In this document: positions 2,471-44,189 of the stretch, piece by piece
Layout of the letters: each line of letters opens with the position of its first letter
How positions within the stretch are numbered: position 1 is the stretch's first letter
From: a virus
DNA: 44,189 bases
IMG/VR virus record: IMGVR_UViG_3300033145_000280
Coordinates: 1 to 44,189 of that record
Strand: one strand, 5' to 3'
Made by a program: the position numbers and the translations under genes
Notes under the pieces: generated by a model
The model's database searches: none
What the model was told of the DNA's origin: nothing
Seen by the model: only the letters and a program-made list of their open reading frames with translations

Positions 2471-2480
2471 GGAGAATATT

Positions 2481-2663
2481 ATGCTATCTGAAGATACTAT
2501 TGAAGAAGCAATCAGACTTATTGAACATTGCCTTGATAAACTAGGAGATCTAGACTCATCTATTGAAGGATGGATTGAACTATTAGATGTTGCTTCAGAT
2601 GAAATTACTGTAGCACGAAACGCTGCTAAGTGTGATTTAGAGGATGACTTTGACAGGGAGTAA
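2481..2663 (+). CDS. Small acidic helical protein, unknown function
   Basis: This 60-aa protein has a strong AAGGAG ribosome-binding site at good spacing, so it is probably real. It is acidic and predicted all-helical (many Glu, Asp, Leu, Ile) with one Cys. Its 3' end overlaps the start of the deformylase gene by 20 bases. I recognise no family. It could be a small partner of the flanking enzymes. Confidence 0.7.
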   Translation: MLSEDTIEEAIRLIEHCLDKLGDLDSSIEGWIELLDVASDEITVARNAAKCDLEDDFDRE

Positions 2664-5710: not shown

Positions 5711-6441
5711 TCGTCCCGCTCATCATGGTTTGTAACGAAGCCTATTTTTTACCTTACGTACTCGAATCTATCTCTGATACCTTTGAACGTATAGTTATCT
5801 ATGATATGAATAGTGAAGATGACACTCCTAAAATTATTGATTGGTTCATGGACAAAGAAACAGACACTGAATTCTTTATGAGAAAGCTACCTTATTGTAG
5901 TCCTGGTGTCCAGGGGGCTCTTAGGAACGCGATGATTGCTGAAGCAAGGTCTGACTCTTACATATTAATTGATGGGGATGAGATCTATCATCCTAGACAT
6001 TCAATTTGTTTACCTCAGTTAGGAGTGGATTTACTAGAAGCACACCGTACAAATAGAAAGAAACGATACGGAGTCATTAGACGTATTGAACTTAGTACTG
6101 ACCTAACAGAACGCTATGATATAGAGAGAGATCATCATAGATTCTACACCAGAGATGCTATCTGGATGAGGTCGCACCCCGGAGAAAGAGCTTTCTATAA
6201 GCAGAACCATAAGAGTGAAGTAAACATGAGGAGCAGTGCTAAACTATACCACTTCCACAACGCTCTACGCTCACCCTATGAGGATAGAGTACCAGGACGC
6301 AAGAACAGAAAAGCCCAAGGATCATATCACCCCGGGCACCTGCAACCGTTTGATTTATTAGATGAACTACCTATCTTACGTAACCCTATAGAGGATTGGC
6401 CTGTCTCACCTGCACTAGAAAAGTTGCAGAATGATTATTAA
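5707..6441 (+). CDS. GT2-like (GT-A fold) glycosyltransferase
   Basis: This 244-aa protein begins like inverting GT2 enzymes with V-C-N-E (8-11), has NSEDDT (35-40) after the second strand, and a metal-binding DGDE (89-92, extended DxD). Conserved His residues near the C-terminus (LYHFHNA) resemble the catalytic tail of Glyco_tranf_2_4-type proteins. GGAGGT lies six bases ahead of the start and the gene overlaps its predecessor by four bases. It is the last large gene of the + strand operon. Substrate unknown. Confidence 0.85.
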   Translation: MIVPLIMVCNEAYFLPYVLESISDTFERIVIYDMNSEDDTPKIIDWFMDKETDTEFFMRKLPYCSPGVQGALRNAMIAEARSDSYILIDGDEIYHPRHSICLPQLGVDLLEAHRTNRKKRYGVIRRIELSTDLTERYDIERDHHRFYTRDAIWMRSHPGERAFYKQNHKSEVNMRSSAKLYHFHNALRSPYEDRVPGRKNRKAQGSYHPGHLQPFDLLDELPILRNPIEDWPVSPALEKLQNDY

Positions 6442-6610
6442 ATGTCTTTGTGGTAGGACAACAAACTATGGGATCTCTTGTAGTGTCTGCACTAAAGATG
6501 ATCCTCTGCATTCAAAAGAAATTGAAGAGATAGATATCTTTGATTTAGTAGACGAAGAAGATCATGAGAAATTAAAAGAGATACTTAAAAACTCCAGGCT
6601 ATCACAGTAA
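6431..6610 (+). CDS. Small zinc-ribbon-like protein
   Basis: A 59-aa ORF starts inside the stop region of the preceding glycosyltransferase and runs to the TAA at 6608-6610. It begins MIIKCLCG and has a C-x-C-G ... C-x2-C arrangement (Cys5, 7, 17, 20) like a small zinc ribbon, followed by an acidic helical tail. Overlap with the upstream gene implies translational coupling. Its last nine bases overlap the last codons of the large convergent internal virion gene. There is no strong Shine-Dalgarno, so moderate confidence. Confidence 0.62.
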   Translation: MIIKCLCGRTTNYGISCSVCTKDDPLHSKEIEEIDIFDLVDEEDHEKLKEILKNSRLSQ

Positions 6611-9600
6611 AGGCTTTATATTATCTATATACTTCTTCGACCTGGATTTCTTCTTCTTCTTACTCTTCCTAGCAAACATAGCAGGACCTAATAACTTACT
6701 AGCAAGTTTTGTATTAAAGTTATAACCACCTACGTTCATGCCGCTGTTCTCTTTATTCATTTCTCTAAACAACAGCTCTTTTTTCAAAGCCATAACTAAG
6801 TTATCAGCAGCTTTCCCTCGATGCTCCTTAGCAAATTCAATAGCATCCCAGAGACGAGTCCTTAATTGTTCTATACTCATACCTCCTAAACGAGGGTGCT
6901 TACCAAGATCATCCATATGTCCATCAGCCCACTTACCAAACTTAGTAAGTCCTGTTCTAACATCAGCATGTTGTGTAAAGAATGAACGTTCAATTTTCCC
7001 TAACGCATCATTAAACATCTCTTCATCACCGTTTAAAATAGCATACTTTATGTTCTTTACAAATACATTTCTTGCTTTCGTATACTTTTTATTCTGCATA
7101 CCTTCATGAAATAACTGTTGCTCTGGAGTAGTTCCCCATGATTTTCCTGTACCACCCATAAAGGAATTTAAGAGCAGATCATAAATAATATTACCACGCT
7201 TACCTGTCTTACTATTTTGTACCAGTCCTAAATCTTCTTGTAAACGAATAGTATTTGCACCAGTTAATATTCCAGCTCCAGCACCAATAGCTGCACCGAC
7301 CGGACCTCCACCAGCAGCACCAAGCAACCCACCTACTGCAGCAGCACCAAGCATTCCTCTATTATCTGCTAAGTTAAAGAAACCCACATCAGGATCACCT
7401 ACTTTTAATCCATATTTTTGCATTAGTGAAGGCATTAATAAACCTGTAAGCTGCATAACTGCCTTACTCATAGCATCACTTTTACCTGTTACAGGAATCT
7501 CTTCACCCCAACTACCTTTACCATAGAATAAACGAACCATAGGTGTAATAATAGAGAAAGGTTCTATAGGACTTAAATCTACCATTCTAGCTAGATCATT
7601 AGGCTCTGCTTCAGGAGAACTACTACCAGCCATCAACGAAGACCAAGGAAGAAATTCCATTGACCAAGCACGCATGTTAGCTTCATCTTCATCACCGAAT
7701 GCATAACCAGCAGCAGCTCCAGCAGCGCCTCCTCCTATAGCACCTACCATTGCTCCGATAGTACCCCAATTAGCTCCACCAAAAACAGCACCTAAGAATG
7801 CAGCAGACGAACCCCCTAACATAGCTCCAGTAGTTTGTCCGCTGTTTAACAATACTGAAGTACCTCTTTGTGCCCACAACGGAGCCTGTCGCATACCATC
7901 TTTAACTTCTTGAGGTGAACCAGGAGCAAGCTCAGCTTCAGACATTGCCCACTGCATAGCATTAGGAATTCTTAAAATGGCTGCTGTCCGCAGAGGAAAG
8001 TCCATTATATTATTCTTCATAATTCTAGTCATCTCAACAGGGAAAGTAATCCACGGAAATGCCATCTTCCTCAGTCCTTTGATTGAATTACCTACGTTCT
8101 TATACTGAGGAAGCCTACGTCCTACTTCCATGACTGCACTTTCAATAGAGTGACCGCCCCTTCGTAACTTCATAAAGTACATAGCCTTAGGCACCATATC
8201 CTCTTGAAGATATAGACTAGACATGTGATGAAGAGACTTGCTTACAAGAGATTTCTTCTTACCGGGCTCATCACCAATAAATTTCAACATTGCTTTAGTA
8301 AAGTTCTTAGCAAACAACGGAGATCCTGCTGAAGATGCTGCTGCAGCTTCAATGGCTGTAAAAGTATTTTGAAGATTAGCAAAACCCTCTGTAGTCTCGA
8401 ATGCATTCTTTTCAATCAGTTGCTGCACCAAAGGATGAGAGAAATCGTCAGTCAAATCAATAGTAGTACCTAGCTTAGTAGTCATCATGGTATCAACACC
8501 AGCCTTATCAAACACATCAATCAGACCACTCTTACTAAAGAGAAGATCTGAATCAATCTCAGTGTCAATTCGACCTTTAGCAACCTGTCTAAATACTTTA
8601 GTCATCCTAGACCCATCAGTAATAGCTTGCTTACTGAAAGGATTCATACCTGCCATAGCTAACATGACAAAGTTACCACTAAGGTTAGTCATATGAGTAG
8701 CAGGATTCAATGCTGTTCTTCCAGTCTTAAAAACAGCAGTCAAAAGAGACAGTGCATCAGTAGAATAAGACATTGCTCCAAACATCCCTTCCTCAGGATG
8801 AAAGAAGTCATTAAAAATCTCTACATTCATATGAGGAAGATCATCTAACCCATCAACAATATTACCAGCACTATCAACCTTCTTACCAGACTTAACTGCT
8901 ACCATCCTACGAAGCCGATTTGTTAACGGATTAGCACCACTGATACCATATCTAGCTGCAATCTCACCACCAAGGTCATTCAAATTTACCCATCTACCTT
9001 TTGCAGAAGGAGTAAGAGCCTCAAAAGCATCATTATCAAGGAACCACTTATTCAAACTAGACTGAGGTACTCCTCTGTGTTTAACAATAGAGTCCGCCAT
9101 AAAATCATACGTGTTTAACAGGAGCTTGTCATGTACTAAACTAAACTGATTAACTAATGCAGGATCAGTAATAATTTCACCGGCCTCAATCCCTGCCTCT
9201 AGTGCCGCTGGATCTCCATACTTCATTCTCTTTTGAAGTGAAGGACTAGTAAGTGTAGCAGGAATCTGACTAATATTCTTTCTAAGTCCTAGTCCTGCCT
9301 TGTTTACCTGGATAGCTCCTGGCTTAATCATCTGATTCCAAAGAGTAGAAGTGTACAAACCTCTAGCAACCGCAGCCCCTACTGTCTCTACCTTAACATG
9401 TCTACTAGGATCAGGGAGACTAGCAGAAGCAATCTCATCCGCAGCATAAAATCCAGAAGAGACCATCTCAGACTGTACTTGCTTATAAGCATCTAATTGA
9501 GATTGCCACTTCATAATCTCTTTAGGATTTTTCTTTCCAATAGCCTGTACAGCTTCATCCGTTTCATCTATCAAGCCCTGCATATACCTAAACCATGTAG

Positions 9601-22410: not shown

Positions 22411-22800
22411 TTAAGTCAATTCAACATCGAATGAGGAATCTCCTTCTGCTATGTATTCAACTACTTCAGTATCATTATCTGCGCCACCGACAATATCACC
22501 TTCTTCATCAATAGTCATCAGATAAAAATGCGCTGTGCTTTTCGTATAAGTTACCATACGAATAGGAGCAGTAGTCCCAGTTAAAGCACCACTATTTTCA
22601 TCACCAACGCGCAAAGTAATACTATCAATAGCAGTTAAACCAAGATCAGTAGCTGTAAGAACTTCACCTTCACCACCAGCATAGGCAGTAACATTAATAC
22701 TACCGACCACCTTAGTCTTCCCTTGCTTGGGATTACCTAATACATCACGCCCAGAGCCAGGAAGGAATTGTCGAAATGTTTCTCGAATTGTTCTAGCCAT
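22411..22800 (-). CDS. Small virion protein, tandem paralogue A
   Basis: A 129-aa protein. Its first 35 residues (MARTIRETFRQFLPGSGRD and on to NPKQGKT) are almost identical to those of the next gene upstream (22813-23184), and both end in a SxYDVEL/SSFDVEL motif. The N-terminus is helical and basic; the rest is beta-rich and acidic. It lies under its own late promoter with a terminator behind it, which suggests high expression, as for a capsid decoration protein. Function not shown. Confidence 0.82.
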   Translation of the reverse strand: MARTIRETFRQFLPGSGRDVLGNPKQGKTKVVGSINVTAYAGGEGEVLTATDLGLTAIDSITLRVGDENSGALTGTTAPIRMVTYTKSTAHFYLMTIDEEGDIVGGADNDTEVVEYIAEGDSSFDVELT

Positions 22801-22812: not shown

Positions 22813-23184
22813 TTAACCTAACTCTACATCATAAGCAGAGTCGCCTGTGGCCTGATACTCAAGAGTCTCAGTATCAGCATCATCGTATTCATCAGGAATG
22901 CCTGATTCCCCTACCTTATACAGATAAAATACATCATTCACCTGACTATAAGGAGCAATACGGTATGAACTGGGGCCAGCAACTGCATTAGTTGGTCGCA
23001 AATTAATCCAATCAATTCTAGATAAACCAAGCTCAGTAGGTGCCAATGCTTCTCCACCACTAACATAACTAGTGACAGCAATCTGACCTTCTACCCGAGT
23101 CTTCCCTTGCTTGGGATTACCTAGAGTATCACGTCCAGAGCCAGGGAGAAATTGGCGAAATGTTTCTCTAATTGTTCTAGCCAT
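22813..23184 (-). CDS. Small virion protein, tandem paralogue B
   Basis: A 123-aa protein, first gene after the promoter at 23288. It shares the N-terminal 35 residues and the C-terminal DSAYDVELG end with its neighbour (22411-22800), while the middle differs. This pattern suggests a tandem duplication with divergence of an exposed beta region. Probably a structural or decoration protein; no catalytic motif. Confidence 0.82.
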   Translation of the reverse strand: MARTIRETFRQFLPGSGRDTLGNPKQGKTRVEGQIAVTSYVSGGEALAPTELGLSRIDWINLRPTNAVAGPSSYRIAPYSQVNDVFYLYKVGESGIPDEYDDADTETLEYQATGDSAYDVELG

Positions 23185-25434: not shown

Positions 25435-26055
25435 TTATGCCGCTCTAGTTATTAAACCATGATCGTAGAGTGCTTGTTGGTATCCTTTGTCATATTCTGA
25501 TTGTTCATTTAATCCTACGTGGCTCCATGTTCTTCCCTTGTAAATAGCTTGAATTGTAGCTCTATGCACTCCAAATTGTTCTGAGATAGTCTGATATGAC
25601 ATAGTTTCATCTTTTAATAATTGTTTAATCTTAATTACATCTCCTTTACTAAGACGTGTATTACCAGCCACATATTCGCCTTTCTTAACACCAAGTTCAC
25701 CGTGTGCTCTACGAGATAAACATTGAAGATTGTCTAAACAATTATTCTCTTTATTACTATCAGTATGATCTATCTGATACGTCTTAGGGATTGGCTCATT
25801 AAAAGCCTCCCAAACTACCCGATGCACAAGAAAAGCTTTTACCTTGCTATTCTTACTTAAAAAACACCTAAGATACCCACCTTTATCATAGTGTAACTTT
25901 AACACACGACCAGTCTGATTATGAATTCTCTTCCTTCCTGTCTTTTTATATTCTACTTGTTGTTCAAACTTTCTTGAAAGCGAACGCACAACTCCTTGAT
26001 TACTTACTTCATAACAATCTTCATATCCAATAACCGATTTCCAAAGTATAGACAT
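25435..26055 (-). CDS. HNH homing endonuclease (NUMOD4-HNH-HTH)
   Basis: A 206-aa protein. Residues 4-26 match NUMOD4 (WKSVIGYEDCYEVSNQG), residues 76-118 an HNH_3 nuclease core with His78, IDHTDSNKENN (95-105) and NL (109-110), and about 140-175 a helix-turn-helix DNA-binding end. It is free-standing, with its own promoter, between the capsid gene terminator and the promoter of the next cluster. Such genes nick or cut related phage DNA near the insertion point and spread by recombination. It is a selfish insert and not a virion part. Confidence 0.92.
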   Translation of the reverse strand: MSILWKSVIGYEDCYEVSNQGVVRSLSRKFEQQVEYKKTGRKRIHNQTGRVLKLHYDKGGYLRCFLSKNSKVKAFLVHRVVWEAFNEPIPKTYQIDHTDSNKENNCLDNLQCLSRRAHGELGVKKGEYVAGNTRLSKGDVIKIKQLLKDETMSYQTISEQFGVHRATIQAIYKGRTWSHVGLNEQSEYDKGYQQALYDHGLITRAA

Positions 26056-27447: not shown

Positions 27448-28401
27448 TTACGCAGTTCGCCTCATGATTTCAACCATCTTAGCTTCGACTTCAGCATCAG
27501 ACATTTCAGGTCCTAGAACCTTGCCATCTGCATCCGTTCGCATCTGTCCAAGTTTATCATCATCAAGAATCCCTTTAATATACTCCTCATCTGAAGGAGC
27601 CGTATCAACTGATTTCTCTGGTGTAGTTTCAAATGCGTCCAATTTTGCTTTTAGCGCACCTCTAGGCTCACCGTACTTCGTTAAAGCTCTTTTATAGCCC
27701 TCTGTAATATGATGTTTCATAGTAGAAGGATCTTTGTCGATCTTCTCCCATTCCACACTCTGTGACAAAAGACCACCGACCATGGCTTTATCACCATCGT
27801 CATACTCTTCTGGAAGTGATTCAAGTATGCTATCTGAAATCATCCGCGTCTGCTCCATTAACATGTCAGCTCGCTGATCAGCAAAAGCAGTGTCTAATTG
27901 CTTTTGGTGCTTCTCAAAAAGTTTAGTAACATCTTGAGTTGCTTCTTCTTCAGTCTTTGCACCAGTTTCAACATCTTCAACACCTTCTTTCAGAGCCTTG
28001 TCTAGAGTTTCAACTAGCGGTTTATACTTTGGGTGTTCTGCTAGTTGACGGAGACGGTCAAGTACATCCGCATCCTCTTCAAGTCCCTGAACCTTCTGCC
28101 GAAGATCGTTCTCTCTGGCCGTGGAGGTTTCCTGATCACCCAGGATTTTTTCTAACTTCCCAGTAAGATCATTAACCTGATCCACCTTTTGCTTGAATCG
28201 GTCATAAGGAATTTCTTGAGTGGGCTTTTCTTTACCCTTCTCTGGTTCCTCAGTGCCTGTAGTGCTAGAACTCTCTACGGGTGGAGTTTGAGGAGCTTCC
28301 GCTGTCTCAGTTTTCTCCGTCGCTTCCTGTTCTTCGTCAGTTGGCGATTCTGACTCATGTGCTTCATTTAGTTGAGCTACAATCTCTGCGCCTGTCGGCA
28401 T
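27448..28401 (-). CDS. Capsid scaffold protein
   Basis: The start is the ATG at 28401 with GGAGGT seven bases upstream, not the upstream in-frame TTG; this gives 317 aa. The protein is very acidic (Glu-rich N-terminal 70 residues), predicted mostly helical and coiled-coil (about 75-200), with no cysteine, as in T7 gp9 (307 aa) and other scaffolds. It sits directly before the capsid gene. It should guide procapsid assembly and leave the head. A direct repeat lies in its leader. Confidence 0.88.
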   Translation of the reverse strand: MPTGAEIVAQLNEAHESESPTDEEQEATEKTETAEAPQTPPVESSSTTGTEEPEKGKEKPTQEIPYDRFKQKVDQVNDLTGKLEKILGDQETSTARENDLRQKVQGLEEDADVLDRLRQLAEHPKYKPLVETLDKALKEGVEDVETGAKTEEEATQDVTKLFEKHQKQLDTAFADQRADMLMEQTRMISDSILESLPEEYDDGDKAMVGGLLSQSVEWEKIDKDPSTMKHHITEGYKRALTKYGEPRGALKAKLDAFETTPEKSVDTAPSDEEYIKGILDDDKLGQMRTDADGKVLGPEMSDAEVEAKMVEIMRRTA

Positions 28402-28420
28402 AGTGCCTACCTCCAATTTA

Positions 28421-28510: not shown

Positions 28511-28533
28511 ATATATTAAATAATTCCTTTTCC
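28511..28533 (-). promoter_or_regulatory. Late promoter motif copy 5
   Basis: AAAAGGAATTATTTAATA on the reverse strand (core 28514-28531), followed by TATAA instead of GGA, about 94-110 bases ahead of the scaffold start. An upstream A/T block with TGTCATAAACATA (to 28567) parallels copy 2. It would drive scaffold and capsid genes. Confidence 0.7.
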
Positions 28534-28588: not shown

Positions 28589-30715
28589 TTATCTCGTCTG
28601 CACCGGGAACAGCGTCAGCGTGACGGTTCCCATGAAGTTTCCACCATCACTACAGTCACTAGCGTCAGCAGCATGTAGAGCCAACGCTTCATTAGCAGTA
28701 AGCAGCTCCATCAGAGGTACAGTAGTTGCTTCTCCTGCTGTATTAAGCGTCTCGCCGTTGCCCCATGTGATCGTCCCTTGACTACCAGCTACGTCAGTAT
28801 ATCCAGCAGGAGCGGTTGTATCTCCTCCGCTTCGCAGACTAAAACTGCAGCCGGTTGTTGATGCCGCGTCGTCATTCGTCCACATGCTCAGGTAGGCGGG
28901 ATAGTAACTATTTGACATCGACGAACCTGCGGGTCCGATCATGTTCACGGTGTTCTCGTAGGAGGTATTCCCCCACAAGCCAGTGGTGAAACTTAGGGCC
29001 TCATCCGTCCCTGCAGTGACTGGCTCATCGTTCACGTTCACATGAAGCACCACCGCTCCCTGATGTCGCACGTAGGCGTATTCCGGTGGCGGGACCGTCC
29101 CGCCGTCCACCCAGGCGTGAGTGATGTCCACGATGCCGGTCGCATCAGAATGGTGGTTGAACATCCGGTAATCGTCTCCTTCGCCCGGATCGACATCGCT
29201 GCCCGCGAGAAACGCCCAGAGCTGGAGGGAGTCGCCCGACGTATCACCGAAGGTCTTGCCTACGATGATGTCGTCGAATTCCTCGCTGTCCTTCTGTGCC
29301 GCGATAGCCCCGGTGACCTTGATGTCGCGAAATTGCGTATCCCCTGACGGGTAGTTGCACACCGCGCCGCCGTGGTCCGTATCGAACACGCAGGGGCGGA
29401 AGTTCCCATCGAAGTCAGACGTTCCCGCCCCGACGATGAAGCTATGCCCGTCCGATGTCGCGCCGCCGCCCTCGCTACGGAATCGGATGAAGTCCTGTCC
29501 GGTGCCGTTGAAGATAACCACCCCCCCGAAGTCGTTGCCGTTGTGCATCGTGATGTCGGTCCACGACTGCCGCCGTGCGCCCTCGAAAGCGCCGCGCGCA
29601 TCACAGGACGTGCCGCCCTTGGCACAATCTGCCGAGACTGACAAGACCGACCCGGTGTAGGGCTCGCCGATCACGACGTTCACGTTGTTGTCTTCGATCT
29701 GGCCGCTGCTCCATCCGCCGCCGATGTGGTTGCCAGTCGAGTAGACCCCTACCCCGAACCGGGTGATGTTCATCCTGCCACGATGTGAGTTGATAAAGCC
29801 GACCCCGGTCAGCATGTAGCCGATGTTGTCGTTGTCTCTAAATACTGTATGGTCAACGCCATTGCCCTGTAAGCTTGGTGCCCACTCACTGAGGTCCGAG
29901 TAGTAGACACTATCCTCCCAGACGGCGATGGAAGAAGTGACCGACCCATGCAGGACATCGGTCGAGTCTATGACCGGGATATGCCCTGCTGCCCATCCGA
30001 CGGAGGAGCAAGTTCCTCCGGTACAGTCCCCGTTGATGAGGCATGTCTCTCCATCATCTCCTCCACCACCGGAGCATCGCAGAGTTGCATCCGAGTCGCT
30101 GAGGAACGTGATCCGAGGAGATCCGGAGAGCTTGATCTTCTCGACGGCGACGCCGGGATTCATGGCACCGCTGTCGTATTTGTATCCCACCTCATGGGCG
30201 CACCCGATCTTGACTACAACCACCCCAGGGTCTTCAGCCCCGAGGGTTACGTCCACGTTGAGCCGACTCAGGTCAAGCTCGAACTGGCCGTTGAAGTTCA
30301 TAATGAAGGAGTCCCCACCCGAAGTGCCTCCTCCGTACGGGACCGGGTAGTTCCCATTTTTCTCGTTGCTCGGGCAGATGTATATGCCGACATGTCGCTC
30401 ATTGTCCACCGTCGGGATCTCGTAGAAGTCGTCAATAGTAACGTCGATATCGCCGACGACTATTGCCTTCTGGATGGTCCTGTCGTCTGCCGTTCCCCAG
30501 CAGGTTTGTACCCCGTCGCAGGTATTGTCGGTATCGACAATCCTGTCGATGATGGCACCCATGATGTAGTCGAACGGGTCCGCCATCCCATCGACGTTGA
30601 TGAGGATCTCCGTCTCGGTGGCCCAGCCACCGATACCGACCCCACCTATAGTAATACTACTATTTACTGGTGTAGCTATAAAAAGTGCTATGACTATAGC
30701 TATAAGATACTTCAT
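28589..30715 (-). CDS. Secreted Cys-rich beta protein, high-GC insert
   Basis: A 708-aa protein with a signal peptide (MKYLIAIVIALFIATPVNSS, residues 1-20), no other membrane segment, and about 20 Cys, several in short pairs (for example C-L-I-N-G-D-C-T-G-G-T-C). Gly/Ser/Asp-rich repeats of strands in the middle suggest a beta-helix or beta-solenoid, with a beta-sandwich C-terminus. The signal-peptide DNA is AT-rich like the phage, but the rest is GC-rich (one 60-base line at 29581 is 65% GC), so the passenger part looks imported. It could be a surface adhesin, tailspike-like protein, or secreted effector. Confidence 0.72.
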   Translation of the reverse strand: MKYLIAIVIALFIATPVNSSITIGGVGIGGWATETEILINVDGMADPFDYIMGAIIDRIVDTDNTCDGVQTCWGTADDRTIQKAIVVGDIDVTIDDFYEIPTVDNERHVGIYICPSNEKNGNYPVPYGGGTSGGDSFIMNFNGQFELDLSRLNVDVTLGAEDPGVVVVKIGCAHEVGYKYDSGAMNPGVAVEKIKLSGSPRITFLSDSDATLRCSGGGGDDGETCLINGDCTGGTCSSVGWAAGHIPVIDSTDVLHGSVTSSIAVWEDSVYYSDLSEWAPSLQGNGVDHTVFRDNDNIGYMLTGVGFINSHRGRMNITRFGVGVYSTGNHIGGGWSSGQIEDNNVNVVIGEPYTGSVLSVSADCAKGGTSCDARGAFEGARRQSWTDITMHNGNDFGGVVIFNGTGQDFIRFRSEGGGATSDGHSFIVGAGTSDFDGNFRPCVFDTDHGGAVCNYPSGDTQFRDIKVTGAIAAQKDSEEFDDIIVGKTFGDTSGDSLQLWAFLAGSDVDPGEGDDYRMFNHHSDATGIVDITHAWVDGGTVPPPEYAYVRHQGAVVLHVNVNDEPVTAGTDEALSFTTGLWGNTSYENTVNMIGPAGSSMSNSYYPAYLSMWTNDDAASTTGCSFSLRSGGDTTAPAGYTDVAGSQGTITWGNGETLNTAGEATTVPLMELLTANEALALHAADASDCSDGGNFMGTVTLTLFPVQTR

Positions 30716-30740
30716 TTGATTACTCCACTATTTGATGTTA

Positions 30741-31481
30741 TCATTCAGCGTTGAACGAAACCGCGAACGCCCGGTAACCATCTTCGGGCTCTAGCGTCCA
30801 CTCTTGGTCGCCTGTGGGATTGTCAGGTATTTCCCACGCGACACCTACGGCCACATTGCCCGAGCTGGAACCTACCAAGATCCAGCAGTCATCATCTTCT
30901 ACGAACCCGCTGGGACAGGTAAGAACGTCGGTGGTGTAGCCATCAGCGAGGTCGATGTACATCGCCAGCGCGCCGGTATCCACAGCAATGCTGAGAGATG
31001 TTTGTGCCGTACCGCTGCCGCTATTCGCCGAGTGGTTATCTAGGATGTCCCCGCTGTCGTGCCCTGTGATCTTACATATTCCACCCGTGGATTTTTGGCT
31101 TCCGGTCCAACTGACGGTATATGTCGGGTCTTCGCCTTCGCTGTCTGCCTCTCTGTACCACAGTCCACCGCATGGTTGACCCTGAAAGTCATCGAAAGCT
31201 ACGACCTCCACCCACGTTCCCGCAATCCCAATATCGGTACATGAGGGGTCACCTCCCACAAACGCGACCATCAGGTCGCCATCCGAAATGTCGAGCGTGC
31301 CTGTCGTATAATCGTGAGAAGTCCCTCCGGATTCGTCGTCTACCAGTTCGCACCCGGTGAGGGTAATGCCGCCGCCCTCCTCAACAACGGGAGGAGGTCC
31401 CCACACAGTAGGCGTACCACTCCCATAATCCAGCCCCATTAACACAAATGACAATAATAGTAAGCCTAACCTCTGATTCAT
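30741..31481 (-). CDS. Secreted beta-sandwich protein, high-GC passenger
   Basis: The best start is the ATG at 31481, overlapping the preceding stop as ATGA, with AGGA upstream; the TTG 15 bases further up is less likely. This gives 246 aa. Residues 1-20 are a signal peptide (MNQRLGLLLLSFVLMGLDYG). The mature part is acidic, Gly/Ser/Thr-rich and has about six Cys, with a strand pattern like concanavalin-type domains (GDLMVAFVGGD, TYTVSWTGSQ). The first ~90 bases are AT-rich and the rest GC-rich, as in the gene that follows. Confidence 0.72.
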   Translation of the reverse strand: MNQRLGLLLLSFVLMGLDYGSGTPTVWGPPPVVEEGGGITLTGCELVDDESGGTSHDYTTGTLDISDGDLMVAFVGGDPSCTDIGIAGTWVEVVAFDDFQGQPCGGLWYREADSEGEDPTYTVSWTGSQKSTGGICKITGHDSGDILDNHSANSGSGTAQTSLSIAVDTGALAMYIDLADGYTTDVLTCPSGFVEDDDCWILVGSSSGNVAVGVAWEIPDNPTGDQEWTLEPEDGYRAFAVSFNAE

Positions 31482-31969
31482 TCTAATCCTGAACAATCAT
31501 CCAAACAACCTTCGCCATCACAAACCTCACCTGTATCTACTACATCGTCACCACAATGAGCAGGGTGACAATAGGTACGACAAGCATCAGGTGTGATGTC
31601 GGAGTTAGAGCCGCCGTCATCACAAATTTCACCAGCTAAAGTATCAATTTCATTATCACCACAAACAGCATCTCGAAGTGGGGAAGGGAAATTATTAAGT
31701 ACCTCAGCAACTCTATCACTGACTTCAAGTCTAGCTGCTTTCTGTGTCACTCTGTCAGTAATCTTCCTAACAATCGTCTCTTCTCCAATACGAATCAACA
31801 TAGAGCCACATTCAGAATTAGTTGGATCTTTAGCACCATAAATGACCGCCAAGTAGTCACAGACAATCTGCAGATCATCTACAGAAGTGGCAGGTACAGT
31901 AACTGAAAACGTAGCCCCCCAAGCCGGTAGAGCTAATGACAAAAATAAAGGTATAATTAAAAGTTTCAT
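31478..31969 (-). CDS. Secreted protein with two Myxococcota-type disulfide repeats
   Basis: A 163-aa protein with a signal peptide (residues 1-19, cut after AWGA) and two copies of the CGD-x-x-x-D-x-GE-x-CDD-type repeat at 103-134 and 139-159, the TIGR02232/DUF4215-like myxo disulfide repeat known mainly from Myxococcota and related bacteria. The middle (30-100) is helical. It lies just after the 943-aa fibre-like gene (three-base gap) and its stop overlaps the start of the next secreted protein. Four Cys per repeat imply oxidative folding outside the cytoplasm. Confidence 0.82.
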   Translation of the reverse strand: MKLLIIPLFLSLALPAWGATFSVTVPATSVDDLQIVCDYLAVIYGAKDPTNSECGSMLIRIGEETIVRKITDRVTQKAARLEVSDRVAEVLNNFPSPLRDAVCGDNEIDTLAGEICDDGGSNSDITPDACRTYCHPAHCGDDVVDTGEVCDGEGCLDDCSGLE

Positions 31970-31972
31970 ATT

Positions 31973-34804
31973 TTATTCTCCACTAAATACATCATCAACA
32001 TCATAACAAAACCGGACTGCTAATAGCTTAGCGTCCTGAGTATAATCATCCTCACTAGCACACCCAGTAGGAGTACCAGCCACGTCTCTAAAAACCTTAA
32101 CAATAGCACGCTGGCTCTTAACCATACTGTGAGTAAAAGTAACCGGGGCGCTGTACATAATATCACCATCAAGGATACAAATATCGTTTGCGCCATTAAC
32201 AGTACCTGCTAAAGTACCAGCCTCCCAAGCACCGTCATCAGCGAAAGAGTCACCATCAATCTGCCAGCAAACGTCATCTGCGTCATTCTCGTCACAGTCA
32301 GTATGGTCAGAATGCCAAACAAAGGTTACGGCTGCTGTAGTACCAATCATATTATCCGGCAACTCAAATGCCCACGTCGCTGCACTATCTGCTCCGGTAG
32401 CAAAGTTCATAGTACGATAATCGTGCGTACCACCGACAATAGTCTCAGTCGTACAACCCCCAGTGCCGAGGCAATTACCGCCAGTAGCATCAAGCATCAC
32501 ACACTCAGTAGGGAAGTTATTGGTAATCTCTATTCCACCTGTGATACCAGTAATCGCAAAATCAATCGCAGAGACAGTACCATCTGAAGTAATATTACCT
32601 ACACCAGTAATAACACCAGCAACGTCAATAGCCCAATCACTAGACTTTAGCTCTAATGTATCTCCACCATCTCCAACAGTTAAAGCAGCAGAAGGGTTGA
32701 TAGTGTTAATAATTTGGGTGGTATTTGCCACCACCGTAAGAACTCCAGCATCTTCAGTAGCCGAAGCTAGGGCTCCTCCTACAGTACAATTAACACTAGC
32801 ATTTGCTGCTCCTGTAAAACAAAGGACATCACCATCTGCTGGGGCTGTTAAAGACACATTAGTAACATCATCAAGATCAGCAGCAGCAGGAATATCAGTA
32901 CAATTAGTACAGTCAATAGCAGGCTCAGCAACCCACGCCGGATCATCTGCACCTGCCATAAAAACATCATTAGCGCCGCCTAATGCTACAGCCTCCCACT
33001 CACCACCAGCATCACCTACAATAATATTACCACGAGTTTCAGCAAGACCGCCTAGAAGAGTTAATTCAGTATCAAGAGGCTGTATCAATAACTCTGCTAA
33101 TGTCTGCCATGAGAAGTCATTGCCAGTATCATCGAATGTGAGGATGTCATTGTTAGTAGCTTCATTATCAGCATCAAGGTCAATTTCTAAAATTGTATCA
33201 TCATCAATATCACCAGTAACAATTGCACCAAATGCTGGGTTACCAGCAGCATTTCCGTGTAGAACAGTAGTAGTAGAACCTTGATTTTCGAAGTGTGAAC
33301 TTGCAAGAACCAGATCAATCTCTGTACAAGTTAGAGTATTGGGGGCATCATCGGCAAATACAATGGTCTCATCAGTGGGACATACGGGGATAGCAGTATA
33401 AATAACATCGTTACTTGTACTGCCAATAGGAATTTCTGTGTCTTCAATATCAGTAGCTACAGTTTCTAGGTTATTAACCTCAGAAGTCAGGAGACCAAGC
33501 TCTGTTGGAGTCTGCCATGAGAAGTCATTGCCAGTATCATCGAATGTGAGGATGTCATTGTTAGTAGCTTCATTATCAGCATCAAGGTCAATCTCTAAAA
33601 TAGTATCATTAGCAATACCGCCAGTGACTATACCTGTAAGATTAGCTCCACCACCAACAAATTCGGGAGCAGTTAAAGTTCCTGCATTAGGATTATATGC
33701 AAGATCACCGTCTACCTCTGCACCAGTTGCTCCACTTCCTGATGCTCCAGCACTAAACCAGACAGGATTTTCCTCCGTCTGTGCTTCATTGTCTGTAATA
33801 GTAACGGTTGTTGCGAGTGTGGCAAGATTAATGGTGATAGTGTTAGGTACTTCTCCATCCGCAATACAGTCAGAACACCCAGAATAAATATCAGCATCTA
33901 AAGTACCATCAGTAATACTTAACCCATCTCCTTCAAGGTCAGTAACCGGAGAAGCATCAGTAACAATACCAAGCTCTGCTAGAGTCTGCCATGAGAAGTT
34001 ATTCCCGGTATCATCAAATGTGAGGATATCTCCATCAGTTGGATCAGCCTCATCTACATCAAGATCAATTTCTAGAATTGTACCGTCAGTAATCTCTCCT
34101 GTAACAATACTACTATCAGCAATAATAGCCAGATCAGCTTCAGTCACTGTCATCGCATCAGTCTGTAAAGTTAACTCAGTAGCACTTGCAGAACCAATCT
34201 CAATCGTACCAGTATGTGCTCCTCCAAGTTTAACTAAAGGCACTCCACCACCAGCACCACCAGTAATATCAGCATCTACACTTAAGTACTCCACCAAAGA
34301 AGACGCAATCTGAGTCTTAAAAGTAACATCAACATCTTCTTGACCATCATCTAGATCAGTCGCCTGAGCATAAATACAAGCATCATCAGTCTCTGAAGCT
34401 GAGTCCTGATCGTCCATACAGAGAGAAGGAGTACTAGTTGCAACAGTAGCAATGTTAGCCCCAAAACTAATTAGACCGTCACTAAAAGTAATAGTAGGAT
34501 CATTAGCCCCAGAGAGAGGGATTGTCCACGTCAGAGTGGCACTTGAACCGTCTTCAACATAGATAGCATCGAGCCTCTTGTTAGTGCCGTCTTCATGAGT
34601 AAACCAAAGAGTCCCAGGATCATCACCACTATTGACCCAAAGCTGTCCATAGCCAACGATATCTCTTTGTGCATCAGACTGTTCAAATAGATAAGCACTA
34701 AGACCTTTCAAAATAGTCGTAGTCCCATAATCTGTACGTGCCAAAGCAATACCTGAAATACAAATTAACGATAGAACAATACCTATGATTACTTTTTTAT
34801 TCAT
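31973..34804 (-). CDS. Secreted tail-fibre-like repeat protein
   Basis: A 943-aa protein with a signal peptide (residues 1-22, ending IALA-R). It carries at least three copies of a module with ILEIDLD and ILTFDDTGNDFSWQTLAEL (one pair encoded by 82 identical bases), as in phage fibre repeats, and a C-terminal beta-sandwich with Trp and Cys resembling fibre tip domains (about 770-940). The signal peptide is unexpected for a tail fibre and suggests export. It is the first gene after promoter copy 6. Confidence 0.75.
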   Translation of the reverse strand: MNKKVIIGIVLSLICISGIALARTDYGTTTILKGLSAYLFEQSDAQRDIVGYGQLWVNSGDDPGTLWFTHEDGTNKRLDAIYVEDGSSATLTWTIPLSGANDPTITFSDGLISFGANIATVATSTPSLCMDDQDSASETDDACIYAQATDLDDGQEDVDVTFKTQIASSLVEYLSVDADITGGAGGGVPLVKLGGAHTGTIEIGSASATELTLQTDAMTVTEADLAIIADSSIVTGEITDGTILEIDLDVDEADPTDGDILTFDDTGNNFSWQTLAELGIVTDASPVTDLEGDGLSITDGTLDADIYSGCSDCIADGEVPNTITINLATLATTVTITDNEAQTEENPVWFSAGASGSGATGAEVDGDLAYNPNAGTLTAPEFVGGGANLTGIVTGGIANDTILEIDLDADNEATNNDILTFDDTGNDFSWQTPTELGLLTSEVNNLETVATDIEDTEIPIGSTSNDVIYTAIPVCPTDETIVFADDAPNTLTCTEIDLVLASSHFENQGSTTTVLHGNAAGNPAFGAIVTGDIDDDTILEIDLDADNEATNNDILTFDDTGNDFSWQTLAELLIQPLDTELTLLGGLAETRGNIIVGDAGGEWEAVALGGANDVFMAGADDPAWVAEPAIDCTNCTDIPAAADLDDVTNVSLTAPADGDVLCFTGAANASVNCTVGGALASATEDAGVLTVVANTTQIINTINPSAALTVGDGGDTLELKSSDWAIDVAGVITGVGNITSDGTVSAIDFAITGITGGIEITNNFPTECVMLDATGGNCLGTGGCTTETIVGGTHDYRTMNFATGADSAATWAFELPDNMIGTTAAVTFVWHSDHTDCDENDADDVCWQIDGDSFADDGAWEAGTLAGTVNGANDICILDGDIMYSAPVTFTHSMVKSQRAIVKVFRDVAGTPTGCASEDDYTQDAKLLAVRFCYDVDDVFSGE
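33103..33184 (-). repeat. 82-base exact repeat, copy A
   Basis: Identical to 33511-33592, offset 408 bases (136 codons), in the same reading frame. A diverged third copy starts at about 33985. It encodes the FDDTGNDFSWQT module. Recent duplication or gene conversion is likely. Confidence 0.9.
33511..33592 (-). repeat. 82-base exact repeat, copy B
   Basis: Second copy of the repeat at 33103-33184, identical over 82 bases; the flanking sequence differs. Confidence 0.9.
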
Positions 34805-34815: not shown

Positions 34816-34834
34816 CCTAATAATAATCCCTTTT
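34816..34834 (-). promoter_or_regulatory. Late promoter motif copy 6 (weak variant)
   Basis: AAAAGGGATTATTATTAGG on the reverse strand, close to the consensus but with changes, about 12 bases before the 34804 start and just after a terminator. It would start the secreted gene cassette. Confidence 0.5.
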
Positions 34835-34843
34835 AGTTAAGTT

Positions 34844-34911
34844 AAAAAAAAGGAGCCTGGGTGGGGGAGGGACACCACAGGCCCCTGCCGCCATGGAGAG
34901 GAACACGGCGG
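34844..34911 (-). terminator. Double-hairpin terminator before the secreted cassette
   Basis: Hairpin 34852-34859 with 34878-34885 (one G-T pair) followed by eight T on the reverse strand, preceded by a second hairpin (34888-34895 with 34904-34911). It ends transcription from the portal cluster. Confidence 0.75.
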
Positions 34912-34912
34912 A

Positions 34913-35221
34913 CTAACCATTGAATTTAATTTTTTCAGCATCCTCTAATACCTTTCGTAATCTCTCATCTGCATCCTTAGGAAACTCGTCTACAGGTTCA
35001 GGTGCCTTCAGATCAAGAAATGTTAGAGGCTGATTAACATAAGGATTTACTACCTGAGGTGAAATAGTCCAATCAGGTTCACTATTCCAGTGATCACTAA
35101 ATCGAAAATTATTAGTATTATCAATCACATAATTTTGACTACTGCTAATATTATCAGTCCCTGTTCTTTGAAAAAGATAATCACCACCACCAGTAAGTGT
35201 TTGACTCATACTACTACCCAT
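34913..35221 (-). CDS. Small protein, unknown
   Basis: A 102-aa protein rich in Asn, Ser and Asp, with an aromatic-rich centre and a charged helical C-terminus. GGAGGA lies seven bases before the ATG. It overlaps the previous gene by 8 bases and is the last gene before a double-hairpin terminator. No recognised family. Confidence 0.7.
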   Translation of the reverse strand: MGSSMSQTLTGGGDYLFQRTGTDNISSSQNYVIDNTNNFRFSDHWNSEPDWTISPQVVNPYVNQPLTFLDLKAPEPVDEFPKDADERLRKVLEDAEKIKFNG

Positions 35222-36012: not shown

Positions 36013-36390
36013 CTACATTCCAAACGGTAGGTGCTGTACATCATACCCTACCTTAGTTAAACGTTGCATCATCCTATTCCCAGCATAAACATTATGAGTA
36101 TGGATCTGAAACTTGCATCCACGATACTCTTCAGGGTTCTGCTTCTCTAAAAATCGTACTGCCTCCATTCCACTAAGTTCACTAAAAGAATTCATGCTAC
36201 TCTGTCCTTCAAAGTCATGCTCTAAATAAACTTTCCTTAATCTCTTTGAATAATCTTTTAATACTCCAATTGCTTCTTCTATATTTTTACACCACACAGT
36301 CGCGCTTACTTCATCTTCTGGCATTCTCTGATACGCTACTGCTGCTCTATTGTGATCTCCGTCACAAAATAAAGTCAAATCCCTCTCCAT
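36013..36390 (-). CDS. cREC-like protein (cyclic-phosphate processing receiver domain)
   Basis: A 125-aa protein matching the cREC pattern as I remember it: FCDGDHNR (8-15, usual F-x-D-D-x-R), VYLEHDFEG (54-62, usual SLDHDLG) and IHTHN...NRMMQRL (96-111, usual HSxNxxGxxxM). cREC proteins are small receiver-like domains predicted to act on cyclic phosphates or related nucleotide products. Among virion genes it is out of place and could be an RNA-repair or counter-defence enzyme. GGGGAG precedes the ATG. Two motif residues differ from the usual pattern. Confidence 0.65.
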   Translation of the reverse strand: MERDLTLFCDGDHNRAAVAYQRMPEDEVSATVWCKNIEEAIGVLKDYSKRLRKVYLEHDFEGQSSMNSFSELSGMEAVRFLEKQNPEEYRGCKFQIHTHNVYAGNRMMQRLTKVGYDVQHLPFGM

Positions 36391-40149: not shown

Positions 40150-43100
40150 CTAATAGAACATGTCAGCATCAAGAGCAACCAAGATACGGTCTATTGCAGG
40201 CATATAAGTTAACGACCACCTATCAATCTTACCCGCTCCTTCAGTAGGCATATACTGACCACCACCAGGGAAGATGTATTTCTTTCCCCAAGAGAAGCTA
40301 TAGAACCCATCATTCTGAGTTACTAATTGAACTACTTGTGCATCGGAAGGTAAGTTAGACGGGGTATGAATTGTCATTGGTCTACGGATCGGGAGGAAGA
40401 AAATATCAGATGTACTCCAATCCATAGTAAGATCTTTAGTATTTCCATTTAGTGAAGACGATGACTTTACATGCTGTGTGGTTCTAAAGGTATTGTCAAA
40501 GTTACCGAATCCGCCGTAGAATCCATCTGCTATAACTTGTGAGCCCTTGCCACTTGCCTTAATAGTACCATCAACCTCTAGCTTAGTGGTAGGAGAAATT
40601 GTGCCAATACCTACACCACTTCCTGCAGACAATGAAATAACTCCTGATGAAATAAGAGCAAGAGGATTTGTCCCTACCTGAACATTAGTAATAGCATCTA
40701 AAACCTGCAATATCGTATCAGCAGCAGCAGTAGTTCTATGTTTAAATGTATATATGTTACCTGAAAGCTTAGAGTTAGCATCAAGTACTACACTATTTAA
40801 CAACCCAGTAGCATTAACTTGCTTCTGCTTAAATGTAAAAGTATCTGCGAAAGCTCCATTAGCACCAACAAGATTTGCCCCACTACCACTATCATACAAA
40901 ATATTAGTGGAACCCAATACAGGCTTATCACTTCCATCAGAAGTAAGATAGAAATAATCAGAATCTACAACTAATGTATCATCTCTGAAAACTGCTCCAC
41001 CAGATTCAGATTCTCTAAAGATAACACCATAGAATCCAGGGCCAGGATTTCCTCCATCATTAGCAGCAGTAATAGTAATAGCGTCATCAGTACTAGAAAG
41101 AGTAACATTACTACCTTCAGTTAATGACTTAAATCTAAGCTGCACACCAACCTTAGTAGAGTATATTCCTTCATCGCCATCACGATTGGCAGCAGTATTA
41201 GCTTCTCCTACCCCACCAACAGAGCTAAGGATAGGCTTACTACTTCCATCAGAAGTAAGATAGAAATAATTAGAGTCTACAACAAGAGTGTCATCCCTGA
41301 AGACTGCACCACCTGATTCTGATTCCTTAAAAATAACTCCGTAGAACCCAGGATCAGTATCTTGTAACCTTGCAGCATCTGTAGGAGCAGTAGGAGCACC
41401 CAATCCAGTGATCTTAAACCCACCCATAGCCTGAGCACCAGAGAAGTCTCTAGAACCGTCTTCCAAGATGTACTGGGTATGATCATCATCAGTAAGACCA
41501 GCCAACTCACCATGATCAGAAACAATTCCACCACCAGCAGCAGCACCGATCATTGGTCTTACATCAATCCATTGATCAGAGCTAGATGCCGGGAAAGCTG
41601 CATCATTTCCTCGCAGAATCACTGTCATAAGACTGGGAAAGCCCTGGAGTGCATCAGGTTTAGTAGGATCTGATCCCGCAATCGCTGCGGCCACTGTACC
41701 ATAATTAGTATTTGGATATACCCAATGAAGTACACCTTCAACTAAGAAGAATGTAGAACGATAATACTGATTTGCTGTATTACCAGAAATCCCTGTTCCA
41801 GTATCATAATTATCTTCATCCATCTGAGAATTAGTATCTGAAGTCCAATCACCACCACCATCATGATACCATCGTCTAAGATTAGTAACAGTTGAATCAA
41901 TAGGAACTGCAGCATTAATTTCAAAACCATTATGCAACCAAACACCTGCAGTCATATCAACATCAAATGCACCATCACCAGCATGTGCAGACACTACCAA
42001 TCCAGAAGTTACAAGAGAGGGGAAAGCAATAGTAAGAGCCCCAGCCATATTTGTCTCTCGTTCACTGGCAATAGGGTATGTATGTGCTGCATAAATATCA
42101 CCATCTTGTACATAAATAATTGCTACAAGAACATCATTATCTGCAAAAGAGGGAGAGGTTGTATTTAATGTTAAAGCAGTACCGGCACCTGATCTATCCC
42201 AATAAAGATAATTTACATCATCATCTGTACAGCCAGTAGAACCAGAGGCGTCTGTGTCAATAACTGCTTTTGCAGTAGCGTCATAAAGCTCCCCTGCCGT
42301 CCATGAAATATTAACACCACCTTCATCAGTAACAGTAATTGTATCTAAAACATTAGCATTAATAGTATCTTCAAGGATTTCTACAATAGTCTCATTACCA
42401 CTACTGAAATCTGAAAGAGTAATGTCTTCTAATGTTAAGGGATCTATTAGGTTTACAATAGGCTTTTCATCGTCACCTGCTGAAGCCAAGTAGAAATAAT
42501 CAGAATTAAATACTAAGGTATCATCTCTAAAGACTGCCCCACCTGCTTCAGATTCCTTAAAGATAACTCCGTAGAATCCAGGACCAATATCTTGTAACCG
42601 AGCAGCATCTGTGTCAGCAGTAGGAGCGCCTACGTTAGTAAGACGATTATCTCCCATGCTTTGATTACCAGTGAAAGCATTAGCTCCATCCTCTGTGATA
42701 GCTTCATCAAAGCGTACTGCATCACCAGAAGCAGAACCTGCTGCTAAGCCAGTGAGCTTGTTAGCACCCATGTCTTGAGCACCAGAAAATGCCCTGGTGC
42801 CACCTTCCAAGATATACTGAGTATGATCATCATCAGGATCTAGACCAGTAAGAGCACCATGATCTGTAACTCCACCTCCACCACCACCTGCAGTACCTCT
42901 AAAGTTAATCTGGACTTCATCAGTATTAGGATCGTTCTGGGTAAGATAAAAACTCTCGACTTCAAACGAAAGAGTATTCAGTCCAGTAAATGAAACAGAA
43001 TCATCAGACTGCTTAACATTAATACCATAGAATCCACTCCCATCACTAGTCCCACTAGCAGTAGAGTTAATGGTAATCTCATCAGCATCACTAGTCATAG

Positions 43101-44189
43101 TAATATTAGTACCTTCAACTAGTGACTTAAATCTAAGGTCTGAACTAGACTTACTGGAATAAACCCCCTCACCGCCACCAAGATTACTCGCGGTATTAAT
43201 CTCACCACTCCCACCAGTGGCAGCAGCATTCAAACTAAGTATAGGCTTACTGCTTCCATCTGAAGTAAGGTAGAAATAACTGGAATCTACAACAAGAGTA
43301 TCATCTCTAATAGTAGCTCCACCTGATTCAGACTCCTTGAAGATTACTCCATAGAACCCAGGACCAATCTTATCTAACCAAATAGTATCATCAATATTAA
43401 CAACCGGACCACCATCTGCATCACTATCAAGATAAAATTGCTCTGCTTGGAATTTTAATGTGTCAATATTAGAATAACTATTTGTATCATCAGTAACAGT
43501 TAACCTGGGACGAATTGAAAGCGCACCAGTACCACCTGAAGCAATAAGGACTGACCCGGTAAAATCTTCTGAGAAATAGAAATATGCTGTATTAGGATCA
43601 GAAACATCTGCTACTGAGGGGGTTACAATTCTAAATGCATCATCATAAACAGTAGCCATGACAGGATGAGTATTAAAATTATGATTAATATCCCAAGTAA
43701 CACCAGATCCTGAAAATGTTCTAGCAATCCCTATATCCTTATTAAGAAGATTGACTACAGGTTGGCCGTCTTGAGCACTGCCTACTACTGGAGAAATATA
43801 AAAATGCTCATCATTAAAATACAGATGAGTGACATCTTCAATCTCAGTTGCCTTACTTGGGAACTCTGCAACCTTGTAAAGCTCTTGTGGATGATTTATA
43901 CCATAGAAACCGCCAGACGTAGAGAATCCCTCTGTAGCAAACACCGTACCAGAGAAAGTAAAAGAGTCTCCAGTGTGAGTGCCAGTTCCATCGTCATCAT
44001 CAAATTCCAGAGTATCTACCCAAACAGGAACATCTTGAGTACCAGTATTACGCTGAAGCTTCCACTGGTCAGTATCCTTGTCATAGAAAGTACGCCATCT
44101 ACGCTGGAAGTCTGCCTCTCCTAACTCCCTTCCTTGAACATCCTTCCGGGCGTTCAGTATGTCCCGGTCACTCTGCACATCTAAAACAG
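40150..44189 (-). CDS. Long tail fibre, 5' partial
   Basis: The frame is open to the window edge, so the true start lies outside; the first possible in-window start is a GTG at 44178. The 1342 visible residues hold about seven GFYG units, four of them in the form GFYGVIFKESE followed by GGAxxRDDTLVVDS and YFYLTSDGSSKPIL, two DDHTQYIL ... FSGAQ units common in phage fibres, and a C-terminal domain from about residue 1200 without the repeats (perhaps the receptor end). It is Asp/Gly/Ser/Thr-rich and likely trimeric beta. It reads toward the portal and is the largest repeat protein here. Confidence 0.85.
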   Translation of the reverse strand, partial: VLDVQSDRDILNARKDVQGRELGEADFQRRWRTFYDKDTDQWKLQRNTGTQDVPVWVDTLEFDDDDGTGTHTGDSFTFSGTVFATEGFSTSGGFYGINHPQELYKVAEFPSKATEIEDVTHLYFNDEHFYISPVVGSAQDGQPVVNLLNKDIGIARTFSGSGVTWDINHNFNTHPVMATVYDDAFRIVTPSVADVSDPNTAYFYFSEDFTGSVLIASGGTGALSIRPRLTVTDDTNSYSNIDTLKFQAEQFYLDSDADGGPVVNIDDTIWLDKIGPGFYGVIFKESESGGATIRDDTLVVDSSYFYLTSDGSSKPILSLNAAATGGSGEINTASNLGGGEGVYSSKSSSDLRFKSLVEGTNITMTSDADEITINSTASGTSDGSGFYGINVKQSDDSVSFTGLNTLSFEVESFYLTQNDPNTDEVQINFRGTAGGGGGGVTDHGALTGLDPDDDHTQYILEGGTRAFSGAQDMGANKLTGLAAGSASGDAVRFDEAITEDGANAFTGNQSMGDNRLTNVGAPTADTDAARLQDIGPGFYGVIFKESEAGGAVFRDDTLVFNSDYFYLASAGDDEKPIVNLIDPLTLEDITLSDFSSGNETIVEILEDTINANVLDTITVTDEGGVNISWTAGELYDATAKAVIDTDASGSTGCTDDDVNYLYWDRSGAGTALTLNTTSPSFADNDVLVAIIYVQDGDIYAAHTYPIASERETNMAGALTIAFPSLVTSGLVVSAHAGDGAFDVDMTAGVWLHNGFEINAAVPIDSTVTNLRRWYHDGGGDWTSDTNSQMDEDNYDTGTGISGNTANQYYRSTFFLVEGVLHWVYPNTNYGTVAAAIAGSDPTKPDALQGFPSLMTVILRGNDAAFPASSSDQWIDVRPMIGAAAGGGIVSDHGELAGLTDDDHTQYILEDGSRDFSGAQAMGGFKITGLGAPTAPTDAARLQDTDPGFYGVIFKESESGGAVFRDDTLVVDSNYFYLTSDGSSKPILSSVGGVGEANTAANRDGDEGIYSTKVGVQLRFKSLTEGSNVTLSSTDDAITITAANDGGNPGPGFYGVIFRESESGGAVFRDDTLVVDSDYFYLTSDGSDKPVLGSTNILYDSGSGANLVGANGAFADTFTFKQKQVNATGLLNSVVLDANSKLSGNIYTFKHRTTAAADTILQVLDAITNVQVGTNPLALISSGVISLSAGSGVGIGTISPTTKLEVDGTIKASGKGSQVIADGFYGGFGNFDNTFRTTQHVKSSSSLNGNTKDLTMDWSTSDIFFLPIRRPMTIHTPSNLPSDAQVVQLVTQNDGFYSFSWGKKYIFPGGGQYMPTEGAGKIDRWSLTYMPAIDRILVALDADMFY
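40932..41039 (-). repeat. Fibre module repeat, copy a
   Basis: A roughly 108-base unit coding for GFYGVIFRESE and the following YFYL block. Similar copies lie at 41244-41351, 42481-42581 and 43254-43361, diverged at scattered positions, so this is an older duplication. Confidence 0.8.
41244..41351 (-). repeat. Fibre module repeat, copy b
   Basis: Second unit of the GFYGVIFKESE series. Differences from copy a are mostly synonymous. Confidence 0.8.
42481..42581 (-). repeat. Fibre module repeat, copy c
   Basis: Third unit, with a different end (YFYLASAGDDEKP instead of YFYLTSDGSSKP). Confidence 0.75.
43254..43361 (-). repeat. Fibre module repeat, copy d
   Basis: Fourth unit, with ATIRDD in place of AVFRDD. 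Confidence 0.75.

Follow-up and report, generated by a model that had tools for sequence, protein, structure and literature searches.

Particles of tailed phages are held to assemble in the cytoplasm from unexported, cysteine-poor parts, and viral particle parts normally neither leave the cell nor fold with disulphide bonds. PblA and PblB of Streptococcus prophages are large adhesins encoded among late genes; they are tail proteins without signal peptides and are freed by lysis. Lambda Lom and Bor are exported morons in the tail region, both small outer-membrane proteins of a prophage. The minor coat protein pIII of filamentous phages carries a signal peptide, forms periplasmic disulphides and binds the receptor, inoviruses being assembled in the membrane. 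The T5 protein Llp is an exported, disulphide-bonded phage protein that blocks the receptor, and the known exclusion proteins are small lipoproteins that are typically made early (PMC9586334). The target binding proteins of phage DGRs were found in a survey to lack signal peptides, unlike the surface-displayed bacterial ones (PMC6199706).

The locus described here is a block of four adjacent minus-strand genes (28589-34804) amid the virion genes of a tailed phage. The window, that is, the whole stretch of DNA that was analysed, comprises 44,189 nucleotides (IMG/VR record IMGVR_UViG_3300033145_000280), in which the four genes follow each other in the order 4-3-2-1 from the portal/cREC side to the scaffold-like gene. 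Since virion parts are normally unexported and without disulphides, the block may represent a secreted, surface-binding set rather than ordinary particle parts. The block and its flanks, with relatives of the phage denoted by L-numbers, contain the following features:

36013..36390, minus strand: cREC-domain gene (PF20274, E 1e-9), left border of the site, present in most relatives
34913..35221, minus strand: small flanking gene of 102 aa upstream of the block; L005, L007 and L044 have small 'LKAPxP' proteins in this position
34843..34886, minus strand: intrinsic terminator (hairpin 34851-34886, then T8), upstream of the block, closing the portal-side operon
34816..34834, minus strand: variant AAAAGGGATTATTATTAGG of the putative late-type promoter motif, before gene 4, one substitution and one deletion from AAAAGGAATTATTTAATAGG
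31973..34804, minus strand: gene 4, predicted exported fibre-like protein of 943 aa (signal scorer, cysteine count, repeats)
31478..31969, minus strand: gene 3, predicted exported small protein of 163 aa with 10 Cys (signal scorer, cysteine count)
30741..31496, minus strand: gene 2, predicted exported acidic protein with 6 Cys, GC3 0.58 (signal scorer, composition)
28589..30715, minus strand: gene 1, predicted exported protein of 708 aa with 14 Cys in the mature part (signal scorer, composition)
28512..28531, minus strand: late-type motif with two mismatches, before the scaffold-like and capsid genes after the block (motif scan)
27448..28416, minus strand: scaffold-like gene, right border of the site, beside the capsid gene in relatives, 56% in L002
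26194..27408, minus strand: major capsid protein gene, query for relatives (phrog_14242, E 4e-19; 49 IMG/VR loci at 66-87% identity)

With PblA and PblB the block shares the late-gene setting and an adhesin-like type, but these two lack signal peptides. Lom and Bor are likewise exported accessory genes among virion genes, although they are neither fibre-like nor arranged as a four-gene operon. pIII is alike in its signal peptide and disulphide type, whereas the present phage is tailed and has a portal, a scaffold-like and a capsid gene. The exclusion lipoproteins T5 Llp and T1-type Cor are phage-encoded, exported and envelope-acting, as the block products would be, and Llp has a disulphide (PMC9586334). 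Those are, however, single small lipoproteins, whereas the block is made up of four genes whose products are mostly large and have no lipobox, and it follows a late-type promoter motif.

Gene prediction over the whole window yielded 44 genes, all of which were passed to a rule-based signal-peptide scorer, which demands a positive n-region, an uncharged hydrophobic h-region and agreement with the (-3,-1) cleavage rule. A Sec signal peptide was predicted for four of them, exactly genes 1-4 of the block, in agreement with the initial annotation, which had seen signal peptides on all four. At the lowest of the four block scores, the background of the scorer amounted to 21 of 20,000 shuffled termini (~0.1%) and 5 of 11,985 internal fragments (0.04%), and the adjacency of four signal-positive genes placed randomly among 44 has p = 3e-4. 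In contrast to the Llp/Cor type, none of the four proteins has a lipobox (0/4). Exported phage accessory proteins are a known class, to which the block would belong by its predicted signal peptides and its absence from close relatives, though not by a lipobox.

Cysteine accounted for 49 of 2065 residues (2.4%) in the block versus 36 of 10,072 (0.36%) in the other minus-strand genes, a 6.8-fold enrichment (Fisher p = 3e-17), and the mature parts of genes 1 to 4 contained even numbers of it (14, 6, 10 and 18, respectively). The earlier description of all four mature parts as Cys-rich thus stands as far as enrichment is concerned, but strictly it fits gene 3 only (6%), genes 1, 2 and 4 having ~2% Cys. 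The mature proteins are strongly acidic with few basic residues, and cysteines and acidity together suggest secreted, disulphide-stabilised proteins in which the cysteines would pair. All block genes are provided with Shine-Dalgarno-like elements, and coupling is tight among genes 4-3-2. The four genes do not form one family and differ in origin: genes 1 and 2 are compositionally foreign (GC3 0.68 and 0.58, respectively), and gene 3 contains a repeat of bacterial surface type. The codon use of genes 3 and 4 resembles that of the phage (GC3 ~0.25), which suggests long residence.

Gene 4 encodes a signal peptide at residues 1-22, with cleavage predicted between MNKKVIIGIVLSLICISGIALA and R. Its mature part contains 18 Cys, many of them closely paired (CxxC, or spaced by 9 to 18 residues), only 16 K/R versus 162 D/E, and three copies of the repeat 'TILEIDL..DILTFDDTGN.FSWQT', which would form a stalk. 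One of the four proteins had been called fibre-like; the three-repeat stalk of gene 4 speaks for this, but neither family nor structure search confirmed a fibre fold. Searches for gene 4 relatives in PHROGs, Pfam, NCBIfam, PDB, phages, plasmids and viral contigs returned weak or low-complexity matches only, the sole PHROG match being phrog_8297 (function unknown, E 0.003), and nothing above chance was found in 40 records of relatives.

For gene 3, the scorer placed its top cleavage site after residue 27, whereas we chose the site between AWG and A at 18. Residues 98-162 form a two-unit acidic cysteine-rich repeat of a bacterial surface type (myxo_disulf_rpt-like), which was matched at E <= 0.01 in 28 of the 46 genomes searched from one bacterial phylum (best match 55% identity, E 8e-13). 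The repeat fell below the models TIGR02232 (myxo_disulf_rpt) and PF13948, with no TIGR02232 match at E <= 1, but it was 59-64% identical to stretches of L106 and L108 that pass both models, and through these it is homologous to accepted TIGR02232 members. Relative to the myxo_disulf_rpt/DUF4215 repeats, residues 98-162 are therefore alike at ~55-64% to the repeats of bacterial surface proteins, while the phage copy differs in scoring below both models and in being joined to residues 1-97, for which no credible match was found in the collections searched. One match of the N-terminal half in a bacterial genome proved RNase H-like by sequence and was dropped.

The only genome match that holds a related phage is the MAG OFTM19 ('Deltaproteobacteria bacterium'), which belongs to the phylum of the 46-genome set and encodes an exported protein in which a signal peptide is combined with the two-unit Cys repeat seen in gene 3. 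This sharing is consistent with, but not proof of, a host of that kind; the host is not established by it, because mis-binning of the phage contig is possible and repeats of this type occur widely.

The predicted cleavage of the gene 1 product lies between MKYLIAIVIALFIATPVNS and S. GC3 in gene 1 breaks at codon 24, just past the signal peptide, from 0.12 before to 0.70 after (0 of 2000 permutations as strong), as if a foreign body had been fused to a resident signal peptide; the break is suggestive rather than conclusive, as AT-rich 5' ends can also arise by selection for initiation. No comparable break was significant in gene 2 (1245 of 2000 permutations). The start of gene 2 is most likely ATG 31481 (~246 aa), which overlaps the gene 3 stop, rather than TTG 31496 (251 aa), and its signal is clear while its cleavage site is weak. 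Relatives of genes 1 and 2 were found in no collection searched, and their single-sequence AlphaFold models, built with no alignment, were unusable (pLDDT 33 and 35, respectively).

The block genes were searched in Pfam, PHROGs, NCBIfam, PDB sequences and INPHARED phages (domains of genes 1, 2 and 4 also with E up to 10), in PLSDB plasmids (genes 1, 3 and 4), by IMG/VR pattern scans (genes 1, 2 and 4) and in the 46 bacterial genomes. Apart from gene 3, all homology searches were empty or at chance level, and genes 1-3 had no fibre-family match in PHROG, Pfam or PDB. The empty bacterial-genome searches weigh little, because a search that lacks a positive control tells nothing when it comes back empty. 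A comparable four-gene set was not found described in the open literature, which accords with the remark in the initial annotation that no equivalent had been described, but does not prove absence.

The control elements around the block point to a transcription unit of its own. The hairpin of the terminator in front of it folds as RNA at -21.7 kcal/mol (z -1.67; matched by 5 of 200 shuffled sequences), and a simple consensus scan had missed it on account of its 9 nt loop. The 20-base motif AAAAGGAATTATTTAATAGG has exactly four exact copies in the window, all on the minus strand (14715, 23288, 25390 and 39604), and from its repetition and positions would be a late promoter. Near forms precede the scaffold gene in L002 and L044, and across viral contigs the 20-mer was found only in L002 and in contigs without relatives of the window proteins. 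The T8 hairpin and AAAAGGGATTATTATTAGG upstream of gene 4 bear out the claim that the set has its own promoter variant with a terminator in front, and support a separate late-type unit, after which the motif at 28512..28531 may restart transcription at the scaffold-like and capsid genes. Another candidate promoter before the scaffold gene, CTCCCRGGCGTAA, was rejected: it has two exact copies, and its total count is at chance level.

Searches with the portal and capsid proteins fetched ~50 related IMG/VR contigs. Among these, the stretch between the cREC gene and the scaffold-like gene is a hypervariable cargo site; the putative scaffold role of the latter gene is assigned solely by its position and acidic composition. 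The cREC-domain protein (PF20274) is kept beside the portal gene across the phage family. In the nearest relatives, L002 and L003 (portal 81%, capsid 86-87%), the block is absent and the site holds one small signal-peptide protein, weakly DUF4124-like; nor was the block found in any other relative fetched. Being missing from the nearest relatives, it is dispensable for virion building in the family, and under the rule of the initial annotation, by which absence from relatives would speak against its proposal, this counts against an essential virion role. At the same site, L005, L007, L013 and L015 carry fibre-type proteins without signal peptides that have a common N-terminal LNxWARTQP segment, and a module of the L007 protein recurs in the window's large Cys-poor fibre (40150-44178). 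The segment is absent from the block proteins and from the L044 protein described below. Other relatives have short, basic or charged proteins at the site. The product of the small flanking gene at 34913..35221 is similar by eye to the 'LKAPxP' proteins, for which the profile search gave no significant match.

A predicted exported, fibre-like protein was found at this site in L044 (IMGVR_UViG_3300037245_003009, capsid 72%). Its gene (5259-6755) encodes 498 residues with a predicted signal peptide, a repeat stalk and 10 Cys, features that it shares with the block along with the site itself; the stalk is weakly similar to the long-tail-fibre proximal subunits of GAP32 and CBB. Profile searches detected no similarity to the window proteins, so that L044 is an independent case. 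It differs from the block in being a single gene, with no separate promoter found before it. Some exported protein, mostly small, occupies the site in 7 of the 24 relatives with a complete site (L003 and L010 included, as read from the sequences), while a scan of ~390 kb from seven relatives revealed no further large exported Cys protein. A family-wide enrichment of exported genes at the site was considered and rejected (5/147 at the site versus 17/753 elsewhere, strict score). In view of its absence from L002 and L003 and of the hypervariable site, the block is not a conserved virion module of the family, whereas L044 speaks for a recurrent theme.

The initial annotation had listed an exported appendage, a secreted coat or effector set and periplasm-matured fibres as options; it is partly supported here, by the export signals, the disulphide-type cysteines and the separate late-type transcription unit. 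The interpretation that we favour, plausible but tentative, is that the block is a late operon of secreted, disulphide-folded adhesin or fibre proteins acting on the host envelope or debris. A late-expressed cargo operon would sit in the hypervariable site of a tailed-phage family; the host Sec machinery would export its four proteins, which would fold with disulphide bonds in an oxidising compartment. Being very acidic and repeat-bearing, one with the bacterial surface-type Cys repeat, they may resemble adhesins or fibre bodies rather than enzymes. They would most likely act outside the cytoplasm, on the envelope of the infected cell and, after lysis, on debris and in the medium, and might attach to ligands at surfaces and so, for instance, hide receptors from sister or rival phage, for which T5 Llp offers a precedent as an exported, disulphide-bonded receptor blocker (PMC9586334). 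What the analysis shows is the features of the sequences, their setting in the genome, the putative control elements and the history of the block, whereas export, disulphides, surface binding and receptor masking are inferred. Against this interpretation, genes 1, 2 and 4 lack homologues with a known function, and genes 1 and 2 may be recent arrivals without a fixed role; the proteins, mostly large, lacking a lipobox and following a late-type promoter, are also unlike known exclusion proteins. Moreover, the ordinary fibres at the site in relatives fit a virion role equally.

Such a role would fall to the block if its products were virion fibres maturing in the periplasm, that is, receptor-binding appendages that fold and are oxidised there and join the particles at lysis. 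We regard this as somewhat unlikely. The use of the site for fibres in other members favours it (those of L005, L007, L013 and L015, with the L007 protein tied by its module to the fibre at 40150-44178), as does the position of the block between portal and capsid genes behind a late-type promoter, and the L044 protein is an independent exported fibre-like case at the site. The late tail spikes of some podoviruses (P22) can attach outside the cell, which also counts for it. Nevertheless, the window already has a large Cys-poor fibre, and phage DGR target proteins lack signal peptides (PMC6199706). The block is absent in the two closest relatives and its proteins are without the N-terminal segment of the unexported family fibres, and for these reasons action on envelope or debris is favoured over periplasm-matured virion fibres. 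A rather unlikely elaboration is that receptor-binding fibres would travel through the host Sec pathway, acquire periplasmic disulphides and dress particles at lysis, their bodies being swapped behind the phage's own signal peptides; the codon-usage break after the gene 1 signal peptide hints at such swapping. A dedicated late operon of four exported, disulphide-type proteins amid virion genes would imply either released adhesin sets acting on cells and debris or a secretory route for virion appendages, and either outcome would broaden what a late gene cluster can encode.

It is unlikely that the genes are passive or transient cargo, surface genes of a host or another phage lodged at a tolerant insertion site with no settled benefit. 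The foreign composition of genes 1 and 2, the bacterial repeat of gene 3, the hypervariable site and the lack of relatives in the family are in keeping with this, but all four genes retain intact frames, signal peptides and start signals in a tidy operon under phage-type control, the codon use of genes 3 and 4 (GC3 0.25) suggests long residence, and L044 offers a parallel. That the proteins are not exported at all, their hydrophobic N-termini being anchors or tail-tip segments of ordinary virion proteins and their cysteines metal-binding or reduced, is very unlikely: although the signal calls came from a rule-based scorer rather than SignalP and the gene 2 cleavage site is weak, all four have a positive n-region, an uncharged core and a cleavage motif against a 0.1% background, the cysteine numbers are even, and gene 3 has the surface-type repeat. 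Least probable is an assembly chimera, in which a bacterial surface operon would have been fused into a phage contig. The GC jump in genes 1 and 2 could be read this way, but phage-type promoter motifs lie on both sides, the flanking virion genes are contiguous, genes 3 and 4, like the initial 24 codons of gene 1, show phage-like codon use, and a parallel case exists in the independent contig L044.

Several further observations were made in the window and its relatives. In L057 (9257-9934, from MAG OFTM19) and L043 (1032-1712), the capsid gene is split after about codon 22 by ~0.9 kb with a homing-endonuclease-like ORF, an interruption that is probably an intron. In the window, an HNH endonuclease gene (25435-26055, minus strand) lies immediately downstream of the capsid gene. 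L019, L029, L036, L043, L052 and L055 encode small proteins with signal peptides downstream of the capsid gene; several of these have a lipobox-like GCA motif, and they are candidates for spanin or exclusion proteins. Cargo genes on the plus strand of the window (12-6441) encode glycosyltransferases, a peptide deformylase-like protein and a FabG-like reductase, and L086, L098 and L102 encode glycosyltransferase-like proteins that begin similarly ('GVAICHYNR'). Tandem paralogues with nearly identical N-termini (MARTIRETFRQFLPGSGRD) are encoded at 22411-22800 and 22813-23184 on the minus strand of the window.
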